A DNA stretch of 64,000 nt. Origin: Mytilus galloprovincialis (Eukaryota; Mollusca; Bivalvia; Mytilida; Mytilidae). Shown here piece by piece: positions 34,501 through 57,690 of the stretch (its first letter is position 1; each line of letters begins with the position of its first letter). The notes beneath the pieces are model-generated. The model searched no databases. It had not been told where the DNA came from and saw nothing but the letters and a program-made list of their open reading frames with translations. Location of the stretch: positions 62,685,877 through 62,749,876 of the forward strand of contig NC_134839.1 of assembly GCF_965363235.1 (NCBI RefSeq), read 5' to 3'. Both the position numbers and the translations under genes were made by a program.

Positions 34501-37500
34501 TAAGAATATCTCTTTTTTTTTCTGATAACATGCAAAAAACAACCAAGTGACAAGTCCAGAAAGGTCCAACTATGAAAAAACATGTCTACATTCATCATTC
34601 CGGAGTCCATATTTGTTTACAAACCTAGTGGTGACAATAACTTGTTTGGCCTCTGTGTCTGAAGCAGATTTATTGGAATGTGTTGGACTTGGACTGGAAC
34701 TCTTTGGTCCTACAAAAATATATCACCACAAACATGACAAATGTTCTTCTTTAATTATATCTGTTCTATCATTTTCAATTAGAAATACATGTGAAGTACA
34801 TTGAAGGTGAGATTAATTGAAAATATATTATTAAGTTATTACATGTAATCATATTCTCTGTTGCCTCTGGGTTTTTTTTTAAAATTAAGTCACTTTAAAT
34901 AATATGGATGATTTAGAGCTTGTTGTTTACTGTGTAGGCCATTGAACATGCTTCCCGCTATAATGTGCCTCTAATGCTTTTTTAGGATAGTATTCATTAT
35001 ATCATTCTCATCATGCTTTAAATTCACTAACTGTACAAATTAGTTAGAAAACCATTTAGGTCAGGTTAAAACAAACTGCATATTCTACTGCAAGTACATG
35101 TAGATAACCAAATGTAATTACAATTTAACTGGTTTTAACTAATCATTTACTAATGTACTGTGTATGTATACATTTAAGGTACAGTATCAGTCATCCTTAT
35201 AATTAAAAATATAAACTAGGAAGATGTTGAATCTCATTTAGTTTAAATCTATTTAAAATACAATAAATTCTAAATTTCAAATAATGGTAACATACATGTA
35301 CATGTACATTGATATTCATTTCTCTTCTCTCCTTTAAATGAACTAAAAGTAAAATTCTTAACAAATATTACCAGAAGGAGGAATGCCAAGGTCCTTCAAT
35401 AATTCATCTGTTTCTGCTCTGAGATCTTGTGATTGAGCAGGCTTTGGTGCTTCATCAGTCTGTCAAAAAACGAGAAATCTATAAGATGTATTCTTTTATA
35501 CACACTAAATAGAGACAAAAGAAAATAAATGTGTTTCTGGTAACCAGACAAACCCCATCTTTATTTACTTCTGACTGAACAAATACTTAAATAATACATT
35601 CTCAGACTGGTGGTTGTTGAATCGAACAAGTGAAACTGCGAGCTACTGCTCACTGATGATACCCCCGCCGCAAGTGGATAATATTAATAGTGTAAAAATA
35701 TGCAAGTGTTCGGTAAACAGGAAGTTGTCGAGTGATGAATCTGAAAACGCATCACACGGTATAGCTGACTTATAAAAATCCTGAAACCAAATTTCAGAAA
35801 TCCTTGGATTGTAGTTCCTGAGAAAAATGTGACGAAAATGTTTAACTTGGTTATCATGTGTAAAATCATACAAGTGTTCGGTAAACAGGAAGTTGTCGAG
35901 TGATGAATCTGAAAACGCATCACACGGTATAGCTGACTTATATAAATCCTGAAACCAAATTTCAGAAATCCTTGTATTGTAGTTCCTGAGAAAAATGTGA
36001 CGAAAATTTTCAACTTGGCTATCATGTGTAAAATCATACAAGTGTTCGGTAAACAGGAAGTTGTCGAGTGATGAATCTGAAAACGCATCACACGGTATAG
36101 CTGACTTATATAAATCCTGAAACCAAATTTCAGAAATCCTTGTATTGTAGTTCCTGAGAAAAATGTGACGAAAATTTTCAACTTGGCTATCATGTGTAAA
36201 ATCAAGACAAGTGTTCGGTAAACAAGAAGTTGTCAAGTGATGAATCTGAAAACGCATCACACGGTATGGCTGACATATATAAATGTTGATACCAAATTAC
36301 AGAAAGGGTGGATGTGTAGTTCCTGAGAAAAATGTGACGAAAGTTTCATGGGACGGACTGACGGACGGACTGACAGACAGAGGTAAAACAGTATACCCCC
36401 CCTTTTTTAAAGCGGGGGTATAATAAAATCTGATCTATTGCTATAAGTTACAAAGCTATGAATCATTGTCTGTATTTGTCTATACTTTAGGCTGTCTTTG
36501 GTTTCAACTGGTTTTCAACATTTGTATTTGATTTTGGACATTCAAATATTTTGGCAGTGTGCATCACTGAAGAGGCATTGATTTTTGAAATACACATAAG
36601 GGATCTCCATTGATGAAAATTGAACGATGGAGGAACTTTCACCATCATAAACCGTATCTACGCTGTACAGTGTAGCACGATCGAAAGTATTTCATCCCTC
36701 CACATAAGGATAGGTGAACATGCTAATTCATTGCTTATTTAAATTATATATCTCTTTGAATTTTCATTATAAATACTATATAGAAGTATATATATTTTCA
36801 ATAATCGCCGTTTGTAACCCTTCAAAGGCCAAGCCCTCATGCCCCCTCCATTTTCCTTAGTCGAGAACGACCAATAGCTATCACGAAGGTCTCCATGTAG
36901 TTTTCTTGCTGTTTTTTGGTAATTGTTATGGGGGTTAAAAATCATGTGGAGCTTATTTTTCACGGACACTGTCAAATTCAGAAGTCATGAACCCATTACC
37001 GTATATCTCTTTGAATTTTCATTATAAATACTATATAGAAGTATATATATTTTCAATAATTGCCGTTTGTAACCCTTCAAAGGCCAAGCCCTCATGCCCC
37101 TCCATTTCCCTTAGTCGAGAACGACCAATAGCTATCACGAAGGTCTCCATGTAGTTTTCTTGCTGTTTTTTGGTAATTGTTATGGGGGTTAAAAATCATG
37201 TGGAGCTTATTTTTCACGGACACTGTCAAATTCAGAAGTCATGAACCCATTACCGGTATGGCTGGTTTGCAGCAATGACAAAACGAGTCGTACGGGTTAT
37301 GTAAAAGGTTAAAAAGATTTGTAAAGCAAACGTTGTCAAATGAAAAGGTTTTTAATGACTTTATGTAGCAAATCAATGCTATGCAACATGCATCTTTCGA
37401 GTCTGAATGAAACCAGAAACGCGGATGTATCAATTTGATTGTAAACTACGAAATTAATTCGGAATTACGATATGATATTTCTTTACATGAAATATTAAAA

Positions 37501-43491: not shown

Positions 43492-46400
43492 ATGAATGAG
43501 GTTATAGATGAAGTTACTTTAGGGTTATGTTTTGAAGTCCACAGAGCATATAAAAAGGGCACTTTATTCTTAGCTGACACAGACCCAAAGTAAGTAAGAT
43601 ATAATAAAATCACAAACAGTGTAGTAAAGATAGATTTATTAGATAAACTAGTGCAAGATAGTCTAATTTCATTATTTTTGAGAATTTCAAATTAGCATTA
43701 TTCCATTTATGTATTATATATTTTTTTAAAACTGAACAAGTATTTTCGATGTTGCATAAATACAATATATAACAATGAAACATGGTAAATCATATATTCC
43801 ATTATTAATAGATTTCAAAATTACCATAGATAAAATACAAAATTAATTAAGTCTGTACACTTTCATTAACTGTCTGAAATATCATACTGTAATGATTTAT
43901 TTTCCAGATCACAAAAAGACTTTGGTAAGCCTTTCTTTTAAGTACTGGAATGCCAGGTTTTCAAAGCATGGGAAGCAGATACAAAGGGAACAATCAAAAG
44001 AAATAAGTTGAAGAAAACAGACACACCATCGTCTAAAAAAACCCAAACCAAAACAGCAAACAATGTTTCAAAATATCAATACACAGAAAACTAATAATCA
44101 ACACAATCCAACCAAAAAGTTGAAACTAGGAATTATTTTGATTTGGAATAATTTTGAATTCTGAAAAATTGATAATAAATGTATAATGAAAATAAACCCA
44201 ATTTTGGAGTGTTAACCATGCATGCTAATGATTTTTACAATTACAAATTTGAAAAAGTAACTATTTACAAGTTATAGGTGTTTTCTTCCAACAGATTTGT
44301 AAATATTTTCTTTTCAGGGAGTATGAGGATGTATAAATAATCGAATTGATAGACCCTGTTACTATGTTTTAAGTTTTTTTCACTTTATGAATGAATAAAG
44401 ATTTGATGTCATATGTTGCTACACATATATATATATATATATATATTCTTCGTTCTTCAGTCATGATCAATGTTATTAATTTTGTGTGCTAAATAAATGT
44501 TTTGTCCTTTTCATAGAAATTGTCGATAGATTTGGTGTGGATGTGTTTGGACAACTGCCTACAAAGAAACAGTTTGAATGCATTTGTCCAAGTTGTCACA
44601 GAAACATGGCTGCATCTAGATTTGCTCCCCATCTTGAAAAGTGTATGGGCATGGGCAGAAACAGTTCTAGAATTGCAAGCAGACGACAGGCTGCACAACT
44701 TGCCAGAGAATCAAATGACAGGTAATTGATAAGACAATCATTGTAACAAAAATTGTCTATTTTCATGTTGGCTAAGTACTCTGGAAGTAACATTCTTTAC
44801 ACATATACTATGTATACACATCACGCTTTATATCATGCATATAAAAACTTTCTTATGAAACAAAAATAGAGTAGAATGTCTACATCTTATTAACCAATCA
44901 TTACCTCTAAGCTACTTTTTGATTTTTTATTGTATGATTGGATTGCTGTTTTGTTGATGAACATTTGTATACCCCACATGTTACATTATAATTTTCTTTT
45001 GGGACTTTATGCCAGGAAAAGGTAAAGGTGGAATTTGACCCCAAATAATTAAATCTGATTTGATGTTTGTGCTTTGTTTGTTTTGCAGACCATCTAGTGC
45101 TCAAGGTAAACGTGACAGTGATGAAAGTCCTGATGATGATAATGATGTAGACTGGAGCTATCATGTTGATAAAAAATGTAAGTCATCGAATAAAGTACAA
45201 ATATGTCTACAGAATAATGATGTAGACTGGAGCTATTATGTTGATAAAAAATGTAAGTTATTAAATAAAGTACAAATATGTCTACAGAATTATGAATTAA
45301 AAAAGATAACACAAATTACCAAAAGTATAAGACAGCACAACAGATCACAGCAACTGTCAGCACTTGATTCCTATTAGAAAATAGACTATCAAACACTGAC
45401 AACTAAGAACAATCATCAAAATCTCTCATAAAAGTTTAATTTAAAGACAAAAACAAGATGGAAGATACCAACCAAATATGTTAAAATGAGAATCAGTTAT
45501 TGAAAAGCAAAGAAAAATGCACAAAACTAAAAACAAAATCCCATACAACAAGACAACTGACTTACAGATATATGTTGTATTGATAATCCAAAATAACTTT
45601 CATCATTAAGTCAGCTAGTGTTTAAGGGAATACGATACAGTATCAGGGGCAGATAATAATGTTTTCAAAACATTTCGTGTTTTTTCGCGACGTTGGTACC
45701 CAGAACGTTGTAATTTTGCGATGTTTCTAATAAGAACGTTAACATTTCGCAATGTCGCTTTAAATGAAGTCATCTTTTCGCGGAATATTCACTGACGTCA
45801 TAATCAGGTTGCACGAATTTAAAAAAAAGAACCTGCTAAAAAAGCGACTATGTCGTTTCTTAAAGACGGTAAATCTGCCGAAAAGCATTGATATCAAAGG
45901 AAATACTGGAGATCAACAAAAATAAATCAAATACAACTTTGCATGACGAATTGAAGAAAAGGTAAAAGACGCAGAAGAGAGTTCTGACAGTATAACATGG
46001 AAAGACGGAAGAAGAATTGTGGAGCTTTTTTAGTCTGGTAAAAGCACTGAATAACTGCTAAAACTGTACGGCCAAACGGAATCTGCTCAACGTACTAAGA
46101 GAAAGAAAAATTGCAAGGATTTCGGAGTTATCCTACTATTCGTTGCTTGAACTGTAGCATGCTGAATAACATTTTTTAAACAAATAAGACACATTACGGA
46201 ACAAAAGGACCTGCTATTTTTGACATCAGCACAAACATGATAAAAGCTGCAATAGCTAATTATGAGTATAGATTTTATATAGATTGGACCGTTGGTTTTC
46301 TGATTTGAATGGTTTTACACAAGTAATTTTTAGGGCCATATTTGCTTGCTGTTTGGTGTGAGCCAAGGATCTGACCGTGTTGAAGGCTGTACCTTTACCT

Positions 46401-49400
46401 ATAATGGTTTACTTTTATAAATTGTTACCTGGATTGGGAGTTGTCTCATTGCCACTCATACCACATCATCCTATATCTATTAATAGCTGCTTAACATCCA
46501 GCGGCAAATATTTAATTGAACATTTATGATATCAACATGTTATTTTAATGAAACTAAAAGAAATGAGAAAACGTATGAACCCGTGATTAATTAGAAAATT
46601 TTAACAAAATATATGGCGCGTAGGGTGGCCGAATCGGGTCTAGTGTTGGAAGATTTGAAATCCATACACAAAAGTCATTACTACGGCGTGGTGTACAGCT
46701 GTGCAATATTTTTCATGACGAGAACATTTATTTTCATGCATTGATAATGAAGTCAATAATACTATCTTCAATTGAAAGATAATCAGAATCAAAATAGTTT
46801 GTGTCTTTATTTTTTTCTTCTTGTATAGCATTGGACAGACTGCAAATTGAATGGTGAATTGTTATTGTGTGGCCGAATTTAACAGACAATCAATAAAATA
46901 ACAAAACCGACTGCATATGCGAGACCCTCATGGCTGGACAAGGTCGTACAACACCCCTATTCGTAAATAAAATTATAAATAAAGGAAGTCTCTCATCCTG
47001 TTCTTGACTTGCCTTGGTACATAAAAAAAAAATGCAGAGTTTAATTGATTTTTTAAAAATATATGATATTACATGTATATGTGTATGTAGAAAAGGTGTC
47101 AATAAAAGTCTGTTAAAAAGATTTAAAAAAATTACATTGTTGTCGTTTTTGTTTTGAATTTAAGCAAAATATTGTCAATAGATGCAGAATTGTCACACGT
47201 TAGTTTATTTCATTGGTTTATTTTTTATGTATATCAATCTGGATGTTATAGACCAAAACAAGAAAACGTCCGTTCACATGCTGTTAAAAGGGCTTGCAAT
47301 GCAATGGTGTCGTTTGTTATTGTATATCGTATTTGTATTTCATTCATTATTTTGTACTTAACTCAGGCTGTAAGTTTCCCGTTTCAGTTGTTTTGCATTT
47401 GGGTCTTTTCATAGCTGACTATGCGGTATAGGTCTTAATCATTGTTGACGTTACATCTTTGTTATTTGGTCTCTGGTTGATATCATTTGCCTCATTGGTA
47501 ATCATACTACGTCTTCTTTTTGTATAGTCATCTCCCTTTTGTACTTCAATGTATTGAGAGATATAAATTGAAGTATCGACAAATGTACACTAATTGCAGA
47601 CAGACAGACAGATCAGAAAGTGTACACACGTTAAAACTCGTCGCTGTCAAGCTGATGAGCAAATATGAAGTCATGCAGAAGCGTTGTTTCTGAGAAAAGT
47701 AACACAATTATAGTTAGGCGATCGGACAGAAGAACGAATAAAGTGTTTTTAATATAGCTTTACTTCTAGACAATAAGTACGCCAATAATCATACAGTTAC
47801 TCCATATGAAAGGTAATGCAACTTATCTATTGATAAAGACATCCTTGAATATTATTCTCTAATACTAGCTGCTGTACTTCCTATGAAATGTTATACTACA
47901 ACTTCATTTTCAGTCGACTGAGGCAATTATGACATGAAATTGCACAAAACAGCTCAAACTATAGAATAAGAAGTACTCCTTATAATCTAAATTTGAAAGA
48001 TGATTATCTTTTGAATGTAAAAAGACAAAAATCCAAGTACGTCGGGCCATTTAAAGCTGACAGGTTTTGTCATTGTTGACGGTTATACGGTTGTTAATTA
48101 ATGGTATCACCTCACTTAATTTATAGTTGGTTCACATTTTGCCATGTTAGGGCCTTTGCAATAATGTTGGCTATCCTCTTTCGGTACATGAAGCAATTTA
48201 AAACTAATGTCGGATGGAGCTGCACCTGTATACTTCTATAAGATTTTTCTGTTTTGCCGTACATTTGACAAAATAATCTGCTGGGATCATTTTTATTATC
48301 TTGTTTTTTTTTATTATGAAAAGGTTCCTGTCCAATTCCGTTTCGTAAATGTTTAGCCTCATGTTTAGCACAAATGTTTAGCGATTTTACGAATAACCAT
48401 CTTATGAATTTTTATGATAAGTATCAACGCTTTGGAAAACACCTTCATATACTTGGCAGCATAGTCGTGTGCGGCGGGAATGATTACACGACGTTGGTGC
48501 GATTAAAACTTTATATAGCGTAATTTAGCGCCATACTGACAGACGTCGTAAAAAATTAAGGTATATGGCTTTTATTGAAAAAACAAGCACATGGACCCAT
48601 ATTTTTTTCTTTTACAATCAATCAAGTACTGTTTCAAGAACACTTCGCCAAAATTTCAAGAAAAAATCAACGATCAATTTTTTTCTGCGCTTCCAAAAAG
48701 ACGCAAAAATATGGTCAATTTCTTTATTTCGCATATATCAATCTAAATCTGGAAAATGATGATTTGGTTTAACCTTAAACTTGTTTCAGCATATAGATGC
48801 CATGGATCAAGGGAACGTTTTACAAAAAAACCCGGTTTAGTTATGACTTTTTGTTCAAAAGTATTGTTACTTTCTTTAAAAGTCATTATTTATGAATTTT
48901 CAGGAATTTTCTTCCAAATATCCAAATTTCGAACCAAATTATCTCAAAAAGTAAGTCATGAAGGTACTTTTTTCTTTTCATATTTGGAAAGTACACATTA
49001 AAATTGACCTACTCTCAAAATTTTAGGAAAAAATCAACGAGGAATCTCTACTGTATCGTATGCCCTTAATATAAAAAAAAAGAAAATTAGAGACATAAAT
49101 AAGCACTTTTATGAATGGTATTTGTATCATACAGTGAATGAAGACATAATTTGAGGAAAATAGTGATATGAAGCTGATAAAAAAGATGTGTTCTTAATTT
49201 TTTTTCCAGTGAAAAAATTAAAGAAAGACAAGATGACAAATTCACCAAGAAGAAACAAAAACAAGATTAGAAATGGTATTTATTATAAATGCATACCAGT
49301 CACCTTAACAAACTGAATTTAGAAACCCTCATCTTATATATGAAAAAATCCCCTTTGTTGTTACATGGCACTATAGTAGCCAAAAATACAGAACGTCCTT

Positions 49401-52400
49401 AGTCAAATCTCTTGCTAATTTAAACTATACACCTTAAACAAGATAGCTACCATATGGTAGTAGTATTCAAGAAAAAAAGTCGGATGGACTCCCAAGTCAA
49501 ATTGTATGACACCTATTCCTTCAGATTGTTATCTTGTTATCTTGTGAACTTGCACTTGAAAAATCATGTTCAGCTTGTTTGTCAATAATTTGTGAATAAT
49601 AATCATATCACGTTAAAAAATTCTCACCCTGATAATTCAATTGATATTTGCCGCTTGTTGATAAAAATTCTATCAGATAACATTTATAATGTTGCATTAC
49701 ATGAAAATCTTGGTGACTTTGATAATCTAGAATAAGATTTGAATATCTGACAGACTACAAGAGCAAATGGATATGAAAAACTTGCAAGCAGTTTTTCAAC
49801 TTTTATCTTACATTTTTGGACTTTTTCCATGTCCATTTCTGTGATTTTAGAAAAACTTATGGTAAGGTATTGAAAATTGACATGCCCACTCTGTTAAGTC
49901 TTTGAAATTTTACAGTTTCTCATTGAAAATATGCAAATATATATATATATTTATATATACATGTACAAGTCTAAATTGAAAACTATATTCAAACCTATGA
50001 TTGCGTTGGATAAAAACCAGAATTTTTATACGTATGCATGTAAAACAAATTTCGTTGTAGAAGGGTCTAAATACAGCACAAACAACATTTTCCAAAAGAC
50101 CAAAAAAGTGAAAAAGTATATTTTAACAAAACACATTTGACAGGTCGAACAACTGATGTTCTTAAACCCTGCTGACTGCCATTGGCGATTGCCAAATAAA
50201 TTGATCACAAGATGTAACCAAATGGATCTTAATATGAATTTTATACTAAACAGAAAAACAATAAACTTGCAGCAAAGATGTTATACCACAAACTTATATA
50301 TAGACACTTATGTTCCTTAAATGGAAGAAGTAAGGATGGTTTCAATAAAAGAAACAAATCAAATTCTTTAAAATTTGTATTCTCTATTTTTCTTCAAATG
50401 CAAGTCAGATAGCAGTACATATATACATGTTATCCTCCTGAATATATGTGTAATATTTGCAGTTGGCAATCAGTTAATTTATGATTACAAATTTTTTGCA
50501 CCTCTGTATTTATTGTTTGCAATTTTGCAGGAGACAGTTTTCTGGAAAGATCAGTAACTCCTGAACCTAATTATGAAATGATGACAATAGGTTTGTACAT
50601 GTACTACAAGTTTGGTTTATTAAAGATAGTACTTTAAATAGATCAGTTAATAGATAACAAAGAATTGAAATACATTTATATTTGCTTTCTGAATAAAAGC
50701 AGATGGAGAAAATACACCAATGAGAAGGCAGTGCAAGTAAAATTTACAAAAAAATGTTTTAGGAATCAGAATGTTAAGTGTTTTAAATATGTATGTTACA
50801 AAAAGACGAACTCAGCAAAATAATGAAAATGAATATAGATGAATCCTATCGTGCAACAATTTATAAGCAACAACTTGCTCTATAGATGAATGTGATGTTG
50901 TTGACATTTTATGATTGATATTTGGTTCTTTTTTTAGATGAAAGAAAGAATCTCCTGACACATGTAAGTTCTCTATCATGTTTGAAAGTATTGTTTCAGT
51001 AAATATCAGCCTGTAAAACTATTTTGTAGATAAAACATCATGATTGTGTACTATTTTATAATTTAAGAAATGTTATAATACTTTCTTTTGAACTGTTATT
51101 CAAAGCGGACTTCAGAAGTATGATTTACTTGTGTCCAATTTAATTTACTTTGAGTAAATGTTTTTTTAAAAACTAAATTGGAATTATTAGAAAGATTTCT
51201 TATTGTGATTGTTAAACAGTTTTCCTGTCTATATTCTTTACATTGCAATATTCCAAATTAGTTTTGGAGTTTCAATTAGCAAATCATAGACTTTGAAAGG
51301 GGCTGATTGTATCATTTTGTAATCATTGCTCAGAACGTTTCATTTTGTATTCATGAAATGTATGATACATGCTGGCAAATCCTGTAATACAAAACAATTA
51401 TCTCCCAATTATACATGCCTATTACAAGATAAATGTTTACAAGTTAATTTATTTATAATTAAGAATATATTGTAGTTACAAAGGTTTGCATTCTAATAAA
51501 ATATTCAGCAAAATAACCCATTTAAGGATGTACTTAAGTGATCTAAGATAAAATTGAATAAATCAAGAATTCAAAATTGATACTTTGAGCTGGAAAAGCA
51601 CTAGTTAAAATCAAAATAAGCAATATAACATATTGATAGGTCATGGAGCTCCTTTTCAGGATAGTATGGAGGGAAAAGGCTGACTCAGACTTTTACCTTA
51701 TATTTGCATTGGTATTATTTGGGTCTCAAATGTAAAGGAAGAAAATCAACAATCTGCTTAAACTTTGTCAAATGACCTTTTATGAGCTATTAAGTCTTAT
51801 GTTAAAAGATAAATAGGTGTTATGGGGCAAAATATTTTACCTTGTGTTGTATGGAAAAACACTGAGGAGTCAAAATTACATCCTAAAGAATGGATATAAA
51901 AAGTAGTGACCATGAACATAAATTCACTAGTTTTGCTTTACAATTAATAAAGAAACCTCTTAATCAGATAATTACCGAAATAACTCTATATTTCAATACT
52001 TATATATGATAAGTATATGTGTTTGTTTACAGACTTGTGGTGTGATATCAGAACATACAAAGAAAATGTGTACAAGGTACGATCATTAATATTCATACAA
52101 CTATAAGTCATAAGGTTTGTAAAATCACAATATTGGTAGTTTCAGTCATCTTTATGGCACTATTTGCTTTAATATTTGCTTTTAGTTGGTCATGTAGAGA
52201 GCCAATGAAGATGAGCCAATTCGTCCAAATGCGCAGCCATATAAAAAAAAGGTGTGGCATGATTGCCAATGAGACAACTCTTCACACGAGACCAAATTAC
52301 ACTGATATTAACCACTATAGGTCACGGTACGGCCTTCAACAATGAACAAAGCCCATACCGCATAATCCGCTATAAAAGTCCTGGAAATGACAAAATAAAC

Positions 52401-54428
52401 AATTCAAATGAGAAAACTAACGGCCTAATTTATGTACAAACAAGAATGTGTTTCCAGGAAAGGGATGCCCCACTCATTTTCAGTGGACCGTGAAATCAGG
52501 GTAATAACTCATATTTGGCATTAAAATTAGAAAAATCATATCATAGAGAACATGTGTACTAAGTTTCAAGTTAATTGGACTTCCAACTTAATCAAAAACT
52601 ACCTTGACCAAAAACTTTAACCTGAAGCGGGACAGACCTACAAACAAACGGACGGACGAACAAACAAACACACAGACCAGGAAACATAATGCCCCTCTAC
52701 TATTGTAGGTGGGGCATAAAAATGAACGAAAAACATATATGTAACACATAACAAACTGTTTGGCATTCAAATGATCTATGAAAAATATCTTATATTTTCC
52801 AAAGAAGGAGATAATGATAAGGATTGCTTTATTATTTAACCCTTGAAATGGTAAACTTTTTCAATCTCTTACAAACTGTTTTCATTTTATTGATCAATGA
52901 ATTCCATAAGAAAAACTGGTAAATTTTTTAAATATTTAAAAGATTGTTACTCCAGGAAAAACTGCAGTTAAGAAAATTTCATTCTTCTATTAGCAAATAT
53001 TTTTTTTATGTTTTTGAACCAAGAACTCTTTTTAATTACTCATAGTCCTGTTCAGATTTTATCATGACTAAAAAGAAATGGTTTGTTTTGACAGATCACA
53101 TAGATGTCCTCAACATTCAGATGAACAAAGAATACAAGTTAGACAATTTCTAATGTAAGTAACATTCAGTATATGGTTCACAAGTAAGGACAAGTCTTGA
53201 TAATCGGACTTTTCAAGAAAGATGTAATATGATAAAAGGCAAACACAACATTTAAGTTTTTATCGTTCATACAGGTATTTTTACTATCCATAATTTATGA
53301 AAAAACAGTTTAACAGCATAACCTTAAATTTCTTAATGTATTTTACTGTTTTTATTATTCCATAAAAAAAATTGAATATACAATATCTATGACAGATTGT
53401 ACCTGTATTCTTATTTTTATGTCCATTTGTGACATATAATCCTGTTGATCACATTTTTATTTGTAACATTAAAATATTTTAGATCAGGTGATGATGATGT
53501 ACATATAGATATTGATACATTAGATGACCCAGATAGTGAATCTGTCAGAGACGCATTATGGGAAGAAAACTCAACGTCATCTTCTCCTGCTGGATCTATT
53601 GTATCTACTACAAGTAAGTAAAACTAAAGACACAAAGTACCAATCTTAGAGTATCCACAGGTACTGAAACCTAGTTCAAAGCCAATTATAACCAAGAAAT
53701 AAAACATATTTCCCGGACCTAAATATCAATCAGTGCACATTCATAAAATTGACAATAGAAATGGGGAATGTGTCAAAGAGACAACAACCTGACAATAGCA
53801 CAGACAACAGCAAAAGGTCATCAATAGGTCTTCAATGCAGCAAGAAACTGATCAAGTGTAAACATTCAATAAACATTATGAGAAAAAAAATCCCATTTTA
53901 GAGAATGCATAAACTTAGTTTTATGTCTTTTCTTATGTAAGTATGCTAAATCATAATGCCCTTTTCAAATTTTAAGTTTGCAATGAAAATGCCATTCGAG
54001 AGATTTTCACCTACCTTTTTAATTTCAGCTGAAACTTTATAAAGTGAATAAATAGAGGAATTAGTTTGCTGTTTTAAAACATAGAAAATATTTTATTATT
54101 GTCTTTATCTGAACGAAATAGCTCAAATTGCAGTGCGTCTGAAAGCATTTGTTTTATACAGGAAAGCCTATGTAATGATTAATCATGACAGAGGTACCTT
54201 TGACACCAATTACCTCATAGATTTATTGTACAATGTATTTATTTATATGCCAACATTTATTTACCTACTTGTATCAAATTTTCTTCAGGTTTAGCCATTA
54301 AAAAACGTCCAGCTCAAAAGGCAAGTTCAAAAAGTAAAGTGAAGAAGAAGAAACCAAATCGACCAATAGAATCTATACATAATAATGATGAATTATTAGC
54401 TAACAGTAATTTATATGACTTTGAATGA
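43492..54428 (+). CDS. ATXN7L3: ATXN7L3/Sgf11-like subunit of the SAGA deubiquitinase module
   Basis: Activates the USP22-type deubiquitinase acting on histone H2B in the SAGA complex. Recognised exons: 43474-43589 (in-frame ATG at 43492), 43908-43924, 44517-44721, 45089-45177, 49210-49275, 50531-50590, 50938-50963, 52033-52076, 53095-53154, 53483-53613 and 54289-54428. From 43492 they total 936 nt (311 aa plus stop), with all phases agreeing. [14 protein letters not shown] is the conserved N-terminal helix region. FGVDVFGQ precedes the Sgf11 zinc finger, [20 protein letters not shown], with C62, C65, H77 and C81, followed by [14 protein letters not shown]. Then come an acidic [10 protein letters not shown] stretch, a KNKI/NSPRR basic stretch, and the SCA7 domain ([20 protein letters not shown], residues 189-208). 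The C-terminus is basic, [16 protein letters not shown]. Human ATXN7L3 is about 350 aa, with some 20 more residues before the conserved helix, so an upstream coding exon may be missing. An alternative donor adds 25 residues. Confidence 0.95.
43908..43924 (+). other. 17-nt microexon of the ATXN7L3-like gene
   Basis: Flanked by a tttccag acceptor and a gtaagc donor. It enters with two bases pending and leaves one, giving K-S-Q-K-D-F and matching the family pattern DTDP..SMKDFEIVD across three exons. Skipping it would shift the frame, so it must be constitutive for a functional product. Confidence 0.9.
44424..44446. repeat. AT dinucleotide microsatellite
   Basis: About eleven AT units in the intron before the zinc-finger exon. 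Confidence 0.9.
45139..45288 (+). repeat. 75-bp tandem duplication spanning an exon end and its splice donor
   Basis: Copies at 45139-45213 and 45214-45288 each contain the exon 3' end (encoding [13 protein letters not shown]), a gtaagt donor (45178 and 45253), about 20 bp of intron, and tacaaatatgtctacag. One coding difference (His to Tyr) and few intronic ones separate the copies. The frame stays open through both, so either donor gives an in-frame product, 25 codons apart. The intervening 35 bp are too short to be an intron. Confidence 0.95.
46290..46490 (-). repeat. Family H copy nested in the Kolobok-like element
   Basis: gttggttttctgatttgaat, gtgtgagccaaggatc, gttgaaggctgtacctttac and gagttgtctcattgccactc match the reverse of 42980-43205. 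Confidence 0.8.
47310..47515 (-). repeat. Family A copy nested in the Kolobok-like element
   Basis: catagctgactatgcggtat, tcattgttgacg and gcctcattggtaatcatact match the reverse of 4506-4795. The plus frame at 47154-47414 ends in it and is not a gene. Confidence 0.75.
49276..50530 (+). other. ATXN7L3 intron; no exon recognised
   Basis: AT-rich intron with a TA-rich stretch near 49938-49960. Short frames between 49910 and 50208 on both strands have no identifiable product. Confidence 0.5.
50938..50963 (+). other. 26-nt microexon of the ATXN7L3-like gene
   Basis: Flanked by a tttttttag acceptor and a gtaagt donor. It joins one pending base to encode DERKNLLTH and returns the frame to phase 0 just before the SCA7 exon starting TCGVISEH. 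It aligns with the EELRSLLT segment of the family. Confidence 0.9.
50964..52032 (+). other. ATXN7L3 intron; nothing recognised
   Basis: AT-rich intron without repeat copies or exon candidates. Confidence 0.5.
52250..52720 (+). repeat. Adjacent family A (52250-52441) and family D (52438-52720) copies
   Basis: ggtgtggcatgattgccaat ... gagaaaactaacggcctaat is family A. It is cut off where acaagaatgtgtttcc begins family D, which ends ggtggggcataaaa. Family D therefore probably inserted into an existing family A copy. Both lie in the ATXN7L3 intron following the SCA7 Cys exon. Confidence 0.85.
53735..53850 (+). repeat. Dispersed repeat family G, copy 2 (ATXN7L3 intron)
   Basis: attgacaatagaaatgggga, tgtcaaagagacaaca and aggtcttcaa match 6150-6260 in the same order. 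Confidence 0.65.
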
Positions 54429-55849: not shown

Positions 55850-57690
55850 TTACACAGTTTTTTGTTTTGCCCGAGACGGCAGCGGCATAAACTATTAGTA
55901 TCAAGCTTTATCTTTATGAAGTTAGAAGACCTTGATGCTTCATATCTTGTATGCAGTTATGAAATTTACGTCTGTCATATGTTTGATGTCCTTGACCTCA
56001 TCTTCATGGTTCAGTGACTTCTTGATCAAAACATGAGTTTTTTTTCGTAATGTGAGTTTCTCACTTATTATGAGTAATAGGATAACTATATTTGGTATAT
56101 GGGTTCCTTGCAACCTTCACGTCTGTCAGACAGGAATCACCTGACCTCGACCTCATTTCATGGATCAGTGATCTATGTTAAGTTTTTGTGCTTTGTTTGT
56201 TTTTATAAGTTTCATAACCAATAGGTCAACTATATTTGGTGTATGCAATGATTGTAGGGTGTACATGTTTATGTCTGTCTGGCAGGTATCATCTGACATT
56301 GACCTCATTTCCATGGTTCATTGGTCAGTGTAAAGTTTTTGGTTAACTATAGTGTATAAAACTATTATAAGGTATACACATCATTCTAGCCAGAATAAAT
56401 GACCTTGACCTCATTTTCATTGTTCATTGAATAAGTGTTTGTGCTTCAGTCTGTTTTTTCAAATTCTTTAAAGTAATATTTCGGATGTATTTGGTATAAA
56501 AAATAATTGTAAGGTGTACATGTCTGTCTGGCATGCACTATTTGACTTTGACCTAATTTTCATGGTTTATTGGTCATGATACATTTTCTTAATTTTGTCA
56601 GTCTATCAGATACTACAAGCAACAGCTCAACTGTAGTTGGTGTATTGAATGATTGTAAGGTATACATGTCTGTCTTGCCTGGTATCATCTGACATTGACC
56701 TCATTTTCATGGTTCATTGGTCAGTGTAAAGTTTTTGTGTTTTTTTAAGTACATTTGTACTACAAGTTATTGGTCAAATATAGTGTATAAAATTATTATA
56801 AGGTTTACACATCATTCTAGCCAGAAAAAATGACCTTAACCTCATTTTCATTGTTCATTGAATAAGTGTTTGTGCTTCAGTCTGTTTTTTTTTCAAATTC
56901 TTTAAAGTAATATTTCGGATGTATTTGGTATAAAAAATAATTGTAAGGTGTATATGTCTGTCTGGCATGCACTATTTGACTTTGACCTAATTTTCATGGT
57001 TTATTGGTCATGATACATTTTCTTAATTTTGTCAGTCTATCAGATACTACAAGCAACAGCTCAACTGTAGTTGGTGTATTGAATGATTGTAAGGTATACA
57101 TGTCTGTCTTGCCTGGTATCATCTGACATTGACCTCATTTTCATGGTTCATTGGTCAGTGTAAAGTTTTTGTGTTTTTTTAAGTACATTTGTACTACAAG
57201 TTATTGGTCAAATATAGTGTATAAAATTATTATAAGGTTTACACATCATTCTAGCCAGAAAAAATGACCTTAACCTCATTTTCATTGTTCATTGAATAAG
57301 TGTTTGTGCTTCAGTCTGTTTTTTTTTTCAAATTCTTTAAAGTAATAGGTCAGATGTATTTGGTAAAAGAAATAATTGTAAGGTGTACATGTCTGTCTGG
57401 CATGCACTATTTGACCTTGACCTAATTTTCATGGTTCATTAGTCATGATACATGTTCTTAATTTTGTCAGTATCAGTTACTACAAGCAACAGATCAACTA
57501 TAGTTGGTGTATTGAATGATTGTAAGATGTACATGTCTGTCTTTCCTGGTTCATCTGACCATGTCCTCATTATCATAGAACCATGATAATGTTAAGTTTA
57601 TGTGATACTTATGGTAAAAACTTCATGTTACATACTTTCAACATAAATTTAATGATAAGTTACACAGGCAAGACATTTTGGTGTGTGCAC
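55850..57690 (-). repeat. Repeat family B, expanded copy with about 432-bp tandem units
   Basis: tcattctagcc recurs at 56381, 56812 and 57246, giving periods of 431 and 434 bp. The first two units are nearly identical and the third is partial. Every block repeats tgacctcattttcatggttc and a gtgtacatgtctgtctggca-type segment. Ends match the reverse of 19805-20700. Non-coding. Confidence 0.9.

Follow-up and report, generated by a model that had tools for sequence, protein, structure and literature searches.

Among the described systems in which a splice donor has been duplicated, the closest documented case is that of human OCT1, where an 8-bp duplication at a donor leaves two donors that are both operative (PMC8137991). 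In that case the alternative product amounts to 38-52% in minigenes and to 0.3-0.6% in the liver of carriers, and the authors ascribe the low liver level to decay of the alternative transcript. Moreover, in a designed human library of tandem 5' splice sites, it is the first of two equally strong donors that predominates (PMC6783452, section 7), a result that, in the account given there, resolves earlier conflicting evidence on donor preference. Tandem duplication has also been described as a way in which introns are gained or shifted (Lehmann et al. 2010, PMC2891723), with an intron case in the RdRp of potato (PMC4974935), and intron sliding is treated in PMC7730772. A literature query on duplicated splice junctions gave no match and the OCT1 case surfaced separately; absence from print is not claimed, and the kind of event considered here is already known.

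The mussel locus lies in a stretch of 64,000 nucleotides (the window), from whose first letter all positions are counted, and belongs to a gene of which the following exons flank the duplication:

44517-44721, plus strand: exon with the Sgf11-type zinc finger (Pfam PF08209, E 2.4e-15; splice borders from the sequence)
52033-52076, plus strand: exon encoding the SCA7 core, first half (joined-peptide matches)
53095-53154, plus strand: exon encoding the SCA7 core, second half (joined-peptide matches)
54289-54428, plus strand: probable last coding exon with the stop, ending ...NSNLYDFE (open frame and acceptor; no Pfam match)

The zinc finger scores 56.2 bits against a PF08209 cut-off of 26.4. The first SCA7 exon alone, unjoined, gave no Pfam match; the hand-joined SCA7 peptide of 36 residues reaches 23.5 bits with PF08313, barely above the cut-off of 23, and is far closer to 2kkt (human ataxin-7-like 3, E 5.4e-14) than to 2kkr (ataxin-7, E 5.6e-4). 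Given an Sgf11 zinc finger together with a SCA7 core closer to that of ATXN7L3, the gene is therefore ATXN7L3-like, as an earlier note on this DNA had proposed, and the duplication does lie between the zinc finger and the SCA7 domain, where that note had placed it. The gene shares with human ATXN7L3 (2KKT) the Sgf11 zinc finger and a close SCA7 core and differs from it in that the two domains may be separated by an additional 25 residues. ATXN7L3, or Sgf11, is a subunit of the SAGA deubiquitinase module, which it joins through its N-terminal helix. A pattern search for this helix on the plus strand of 25000-56000 returned no candidate exon, and neither the first exons of the gene nor any exon in the stretch from 49275 to 52033 were located.

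The duplication consists of two head-to-tail copies of 75 nt, each with 39 exonic nt followed by 36 intronic nt, the GTAAGT donor being counted inside the intron part:

45139-45213, plus strand: copy 1, 75 nt long (exonic over its first 39 nt, intronic over the other 36)
45214-45288, plus strand: copy 2, also 75 nt long (alignment to copy 1 and TRF)

The copies are identical at 71 of 75 positions (95%) in a gap-free alignment, and TRF gives a period of 75, 2.1 copies and a 93% match over 45139-45295; both agree with the 75-bp in-frame duplication of an exon end and its donor that had been noted earlier, exactly where it had been put. When the 6-kb region was shuffled 200 times by mononucleotides, the best comparison at offset 75 reached 38 of 75 identities against the 71 observed, which excludes chance and makes this a true duplication. 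All four differences between the copies are transitions (45162/45237, 45184/45259 and 45187/45262, C/T; 45188/45263, G/A), and in each of them C or G in copy 1 stands against T or A in copy 2; since four sites differ, an exact expansion during assembly is an unlikely source of the copies. At its start the unit reads ATAATGA, and just past its end stands ATTATGA, a short 6/7 match, the copies themselves abutting. This imperfect match at both ends would fit slippage or microhomology repair and renders the single replication slip of the earlier note plausible, as a mechanism that we infer.

Around the duplication, the exon, its two donors and the exon that follows are arranged as follows (the slash marks the exon border):

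45089-45177, plus strand: 89-nt exon ending at donor 1 (acceptor gttttgcag, donor AAT/GTAAGT; in frame with both neighbours)
45178-45186, plus strand: donor 1 (GTAAGTCAT), GT at 45178 (sequence; U1 duplex energy equal to that of donor 2)
45253-45261, plus strand: donor 2 (GTAAGTTAT), GT at 45253 (sequence; U1 duplex energy equal to that of donor 1)
45178-45252, plus strand: predicted optional 25-codon exon extension, dependent on splicing from donor 2 (translated joined forms)
49210-49275, plus strand: next exon (acceptor ttttttttccag, ending at 49209; 3' border guessed from the sequence, 49274 in the computations)

One exon thus carries two near-consensus GT donors, each AAT/GTAAGT and 75 nt apart, which have the same sequence from -3 to +6 and a moderate U1 duplex energy of -5.4 kcal/mol each, so the donor sequence itself cannot decide between the sites. 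Neither is especially strong, since four of the five other donors scored in the gene bind U1 better (-8.1, -7.2, -7.0 and -5.6, with -4.3 for the guessed donor after exon 49210). Translation of the joined forms, 45177 to 49210 and 45252 to 49210, remains in frame in both cases, because 75 is divisible by three and the copied bit of intron happens to contain no stop. The two donors are intact and in frame, as had been claimed, and the long form would indeed carry an insert of 25 residues with a second acidic block between the zinc finger and the SCA7 domain; the NDVDWSY block is retained in both copies, with H to Y as the only coding change. The linker is probably disordered, and the production of two isoforms from the one gene is, from the sequence, possible but unproven. 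A 252-nt segment folded around the donors gave a z of -0.83, with 36 of 200 shuffles folding at least as well, which gives no sign of RNA structure, and no Rfam match was obtained in 44000-50000 at gathering thresholds.

Near the end of each copy the unit also contains TCTACAG, with an AG at 45212 or 45287 that lies 35 or 110 nt from donor 1, and the duplication could in principle have made a new intron from donor 1 to one of these copied AGs. Tandem duplication is a published source of new introns, and the cases in PMC2891723 and PMC4974935 resemble the present one in that splice signals copied in a short tandem duplication alter the structure of a gene; they concern, however, a new intron, whereas here a donor is copied and the boundary of an existing intron can move. 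The tract preceding the AG is poor in pyrimidines, and removal of 35 nt, which would keep 40 of the 75 nt, shifts the frame. A length of 35 nt is also below that usual for animal introns, and this origin seems hardly credible.

We lean instead, with somewhat better than even confidence, towards an ordinary small tandem duplication that would have copied the end of a coding exon together with its splice donor, probably by replication slippage or repair at the short imperfect match, and would have left two competing donors, in frame, 75 nt from each other and locally equal in strength. As the frame stays intact with either donor, selection need not have removed the duplication. Both donors would be usable, the upstream form of ancestral length being dominant and the form longer by 25 residues being minor and without special function; the mutational mechanism, the splicing outcome and the neutrality are all things that we infer. 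From the OCT1 case and the human tandem-donor library, both junctions may be expected, with the upstream one in excess. OCT1 (PMC8137991) shares with the mussel gene a tandem duplication across an exon-intron border that yields two donors, both shown to work in OCT1; it differs in that its duplication is of 8 bp, gives an alternative form that encodes a truncated protein and hardly occurs in liver, is common in people and was followed in minigenes and liver RNA, whereas that of the mussel is of 75 bp and in frame. Were both mussel donors used, neither product should be hidden by decay, as both are in frame. The libraries of PMC6783452 likewise have two donors on one exon and one acceptor, but the mussel donors are copies of one another, and the copying extends over 39 nt on the upstream and 36 nt on the downstream side. 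If both were used, the locus would be a clean natural experiment with near-identical donor contexts at different distances from one acceptor and, as the birth of an isoform, a tidy case rather than a new principle.

The same evidence bears on the use of one donor only. The first-donor preference at equal strength in the libraries of PMC6783452 would also suit a gene that uses the upstream donor alone, with copy 2 as dead intron and the protein unchanged; this would preserve the protein that existed before the duplication, and it agrees with a linker whose openness is only at chance level (see below). The donors nevertheless match exactly over positions -3 to +6, and OCT1 (PMC8137991), the nearest case on record, has both of its duplicated donors functioning, so exclusive upstream use is possible but rather unlikely. 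That the 'first donor' preference was established in a human library counts against the expected upstream dominance. A 2010 paper by Hicks, which reportedly speaks in its title of enhanced proximal splicing, points to the proximal, downstream donor and against upstream dominance. Preference for the intron-proximal of competing 5' splice sites is an older reported rule, and if the downstream donor alone were used the protein would constitutively carry two NDVDWSY blocks, in keeping with a block that both copies have kept save for the change of H to Y. This, however, is contradicted by the library result in PMC6783452 and would give every molecule of the protein the 25-residue insert, and we regard it as more doubtful still than exclusive upstream use.

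The earlier note had pointed out that no stop lies between the donors; the frame is open, and it continues so beyond donor 2 to a stop at 45375-45377, but this is the level expected by chance, as 3793 of 8214 12-codon stretches in the introns of the gene are open (46%), and 97 of 181 among those starting at GTR, in a count that took 49275-52032 as intron although an exon may hide there. With about half of comparable intron stretches open, the lack of a stop from one donor to the other says nothing in favour of coding. From a one-in-three chance of a length divisible by three and an about-half chance of an open frame, an in-frame, stop-free outcome would be expected, by our arithmetic, in roughly 1 in 6 of such duplications before selection. 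The insert does sit between both domains of a deubiquitinase-module subunit and carries a second acidic block, as a functional and regulated switch altering the linker between zinc finger and SCA7 would have it; the openness of the linker is uninformative in this respect, the sampled genome is rich in two-copy duplications, and we judge such a switch to be very unlikely. Scarcely any more credit, and perhaps a little less, is given to a recently born regulated isoform switch, between a short and a double-block linker, in which one tandem duplication would have made a chromatin-regulator isoform that is adjustable through donor choice and is caught early in its evolution.

The ordinary duplication that we prefer belongs to a class that looks common in the mussel genome. 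In 20 stretches of 10 kb from two contigs (200 kb), there are 10 two-copy arrays with a period of 30-300 and at least 88% match, of which three are seemingly repeats of one array inside L025, and the 64-kb window holds 2 by the same criteria (period 30-300, >=88% match), which corresponds to about 40-50 per Mb. Assuming about 200,000 donors in the genome and a mean unit of about 100 bp, some hundreds of donor-spanning duplications would be expected genome-wide before selection. The earlier note had read the low divergence of the copies as the sign of a young event. This reading is weakened, since the 93% TRF match ties for second lowest among the 12 two-copy arrays and the duplication is not notably young for its class. 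An absolute date would be unsafe, as two of the four differences sit in one CpG of copy 1 (45187 C and 45188 G), which may mutate faster. A two-copy tandem duplication of 254 bp at 36747-37255, 98% alike, is a further sign that tandem duplication is frequent.

Most of the intron downstream of the donors is taken up by a transposon:

45622-49069, no strand assigned: high-copy DNA transposon in the intron, outside the duplication (inverted ends, TTAA at both borders)

It is 3448 bp long, with inverted ends of 21 nt (TTAAGGGNATACGATACAGTA), and without it the intron would measure about 588 nt from donor 1 and 513 nt from donor 2. Its ends have 2822 genome matches at <=1 mismatch, against 0 for a reversed control pattern, and copies of its body are up to 95% identical among the 40 scored of 5043 candidates. 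Four of its open frames gave no Pfam match, so the element looks non-autonomous. A possible third copy of the unit near the acceptor (49167-49197, 74% identical) was seemingly significant as a preselected 31-mer in mononucleotide shuffles (1/300), but the fairer test of the whole unit in dinucleotide shuffles gave 70/300 with the whole intron and 38/300 without the transposon, and the candidate was rejected as chance.

In the genome as searched (1.385 Gb, 331 contigs), Sgf11 (PF08209) was matched once, and so was the duplicated exon at the DNA level. Any processed copy that might record the splice choice was sought at the DNA, family and protein levels, with the zinc finger, duplicated and following exons as queries and the best candidates scored, and only the gene's own exons appeared at E <= 0.001. 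The protein search with the three joined exons likewise gave, among the best candidates scored, only the ATXN7L3-like locus at E 0.001 or better, and a C11 match with 25% identity and E 9.6 was rejected as chance. The genome-wide PF08313 search has little power where a domain is divided among exons, and it missed the split exons of the ATXN7L3-like gene itself; two SCA7 matches at C1:48016378-48017148 (L003, L004) belong to another gene, possibly an ataxin-7 homologue. A pattern scan for relatives in bacterial and archaeal contigs, where little was expected, gave 52 matches and 0 relatives.

Two further repeats lie in the window. On the minus strand of 1-660, a 78-bp tandem array forms an open frame of a 26-residue repeat rich in Thr, Val and Glu (e.g., TTASEQTVTTDVPTTTEQVTVTSQTG), the predicted product of which looks like a mucin-like or cell-surface protein, and at 56333-57576 a 434-bp tandem array shows an inner periodicity of about 146 bp.
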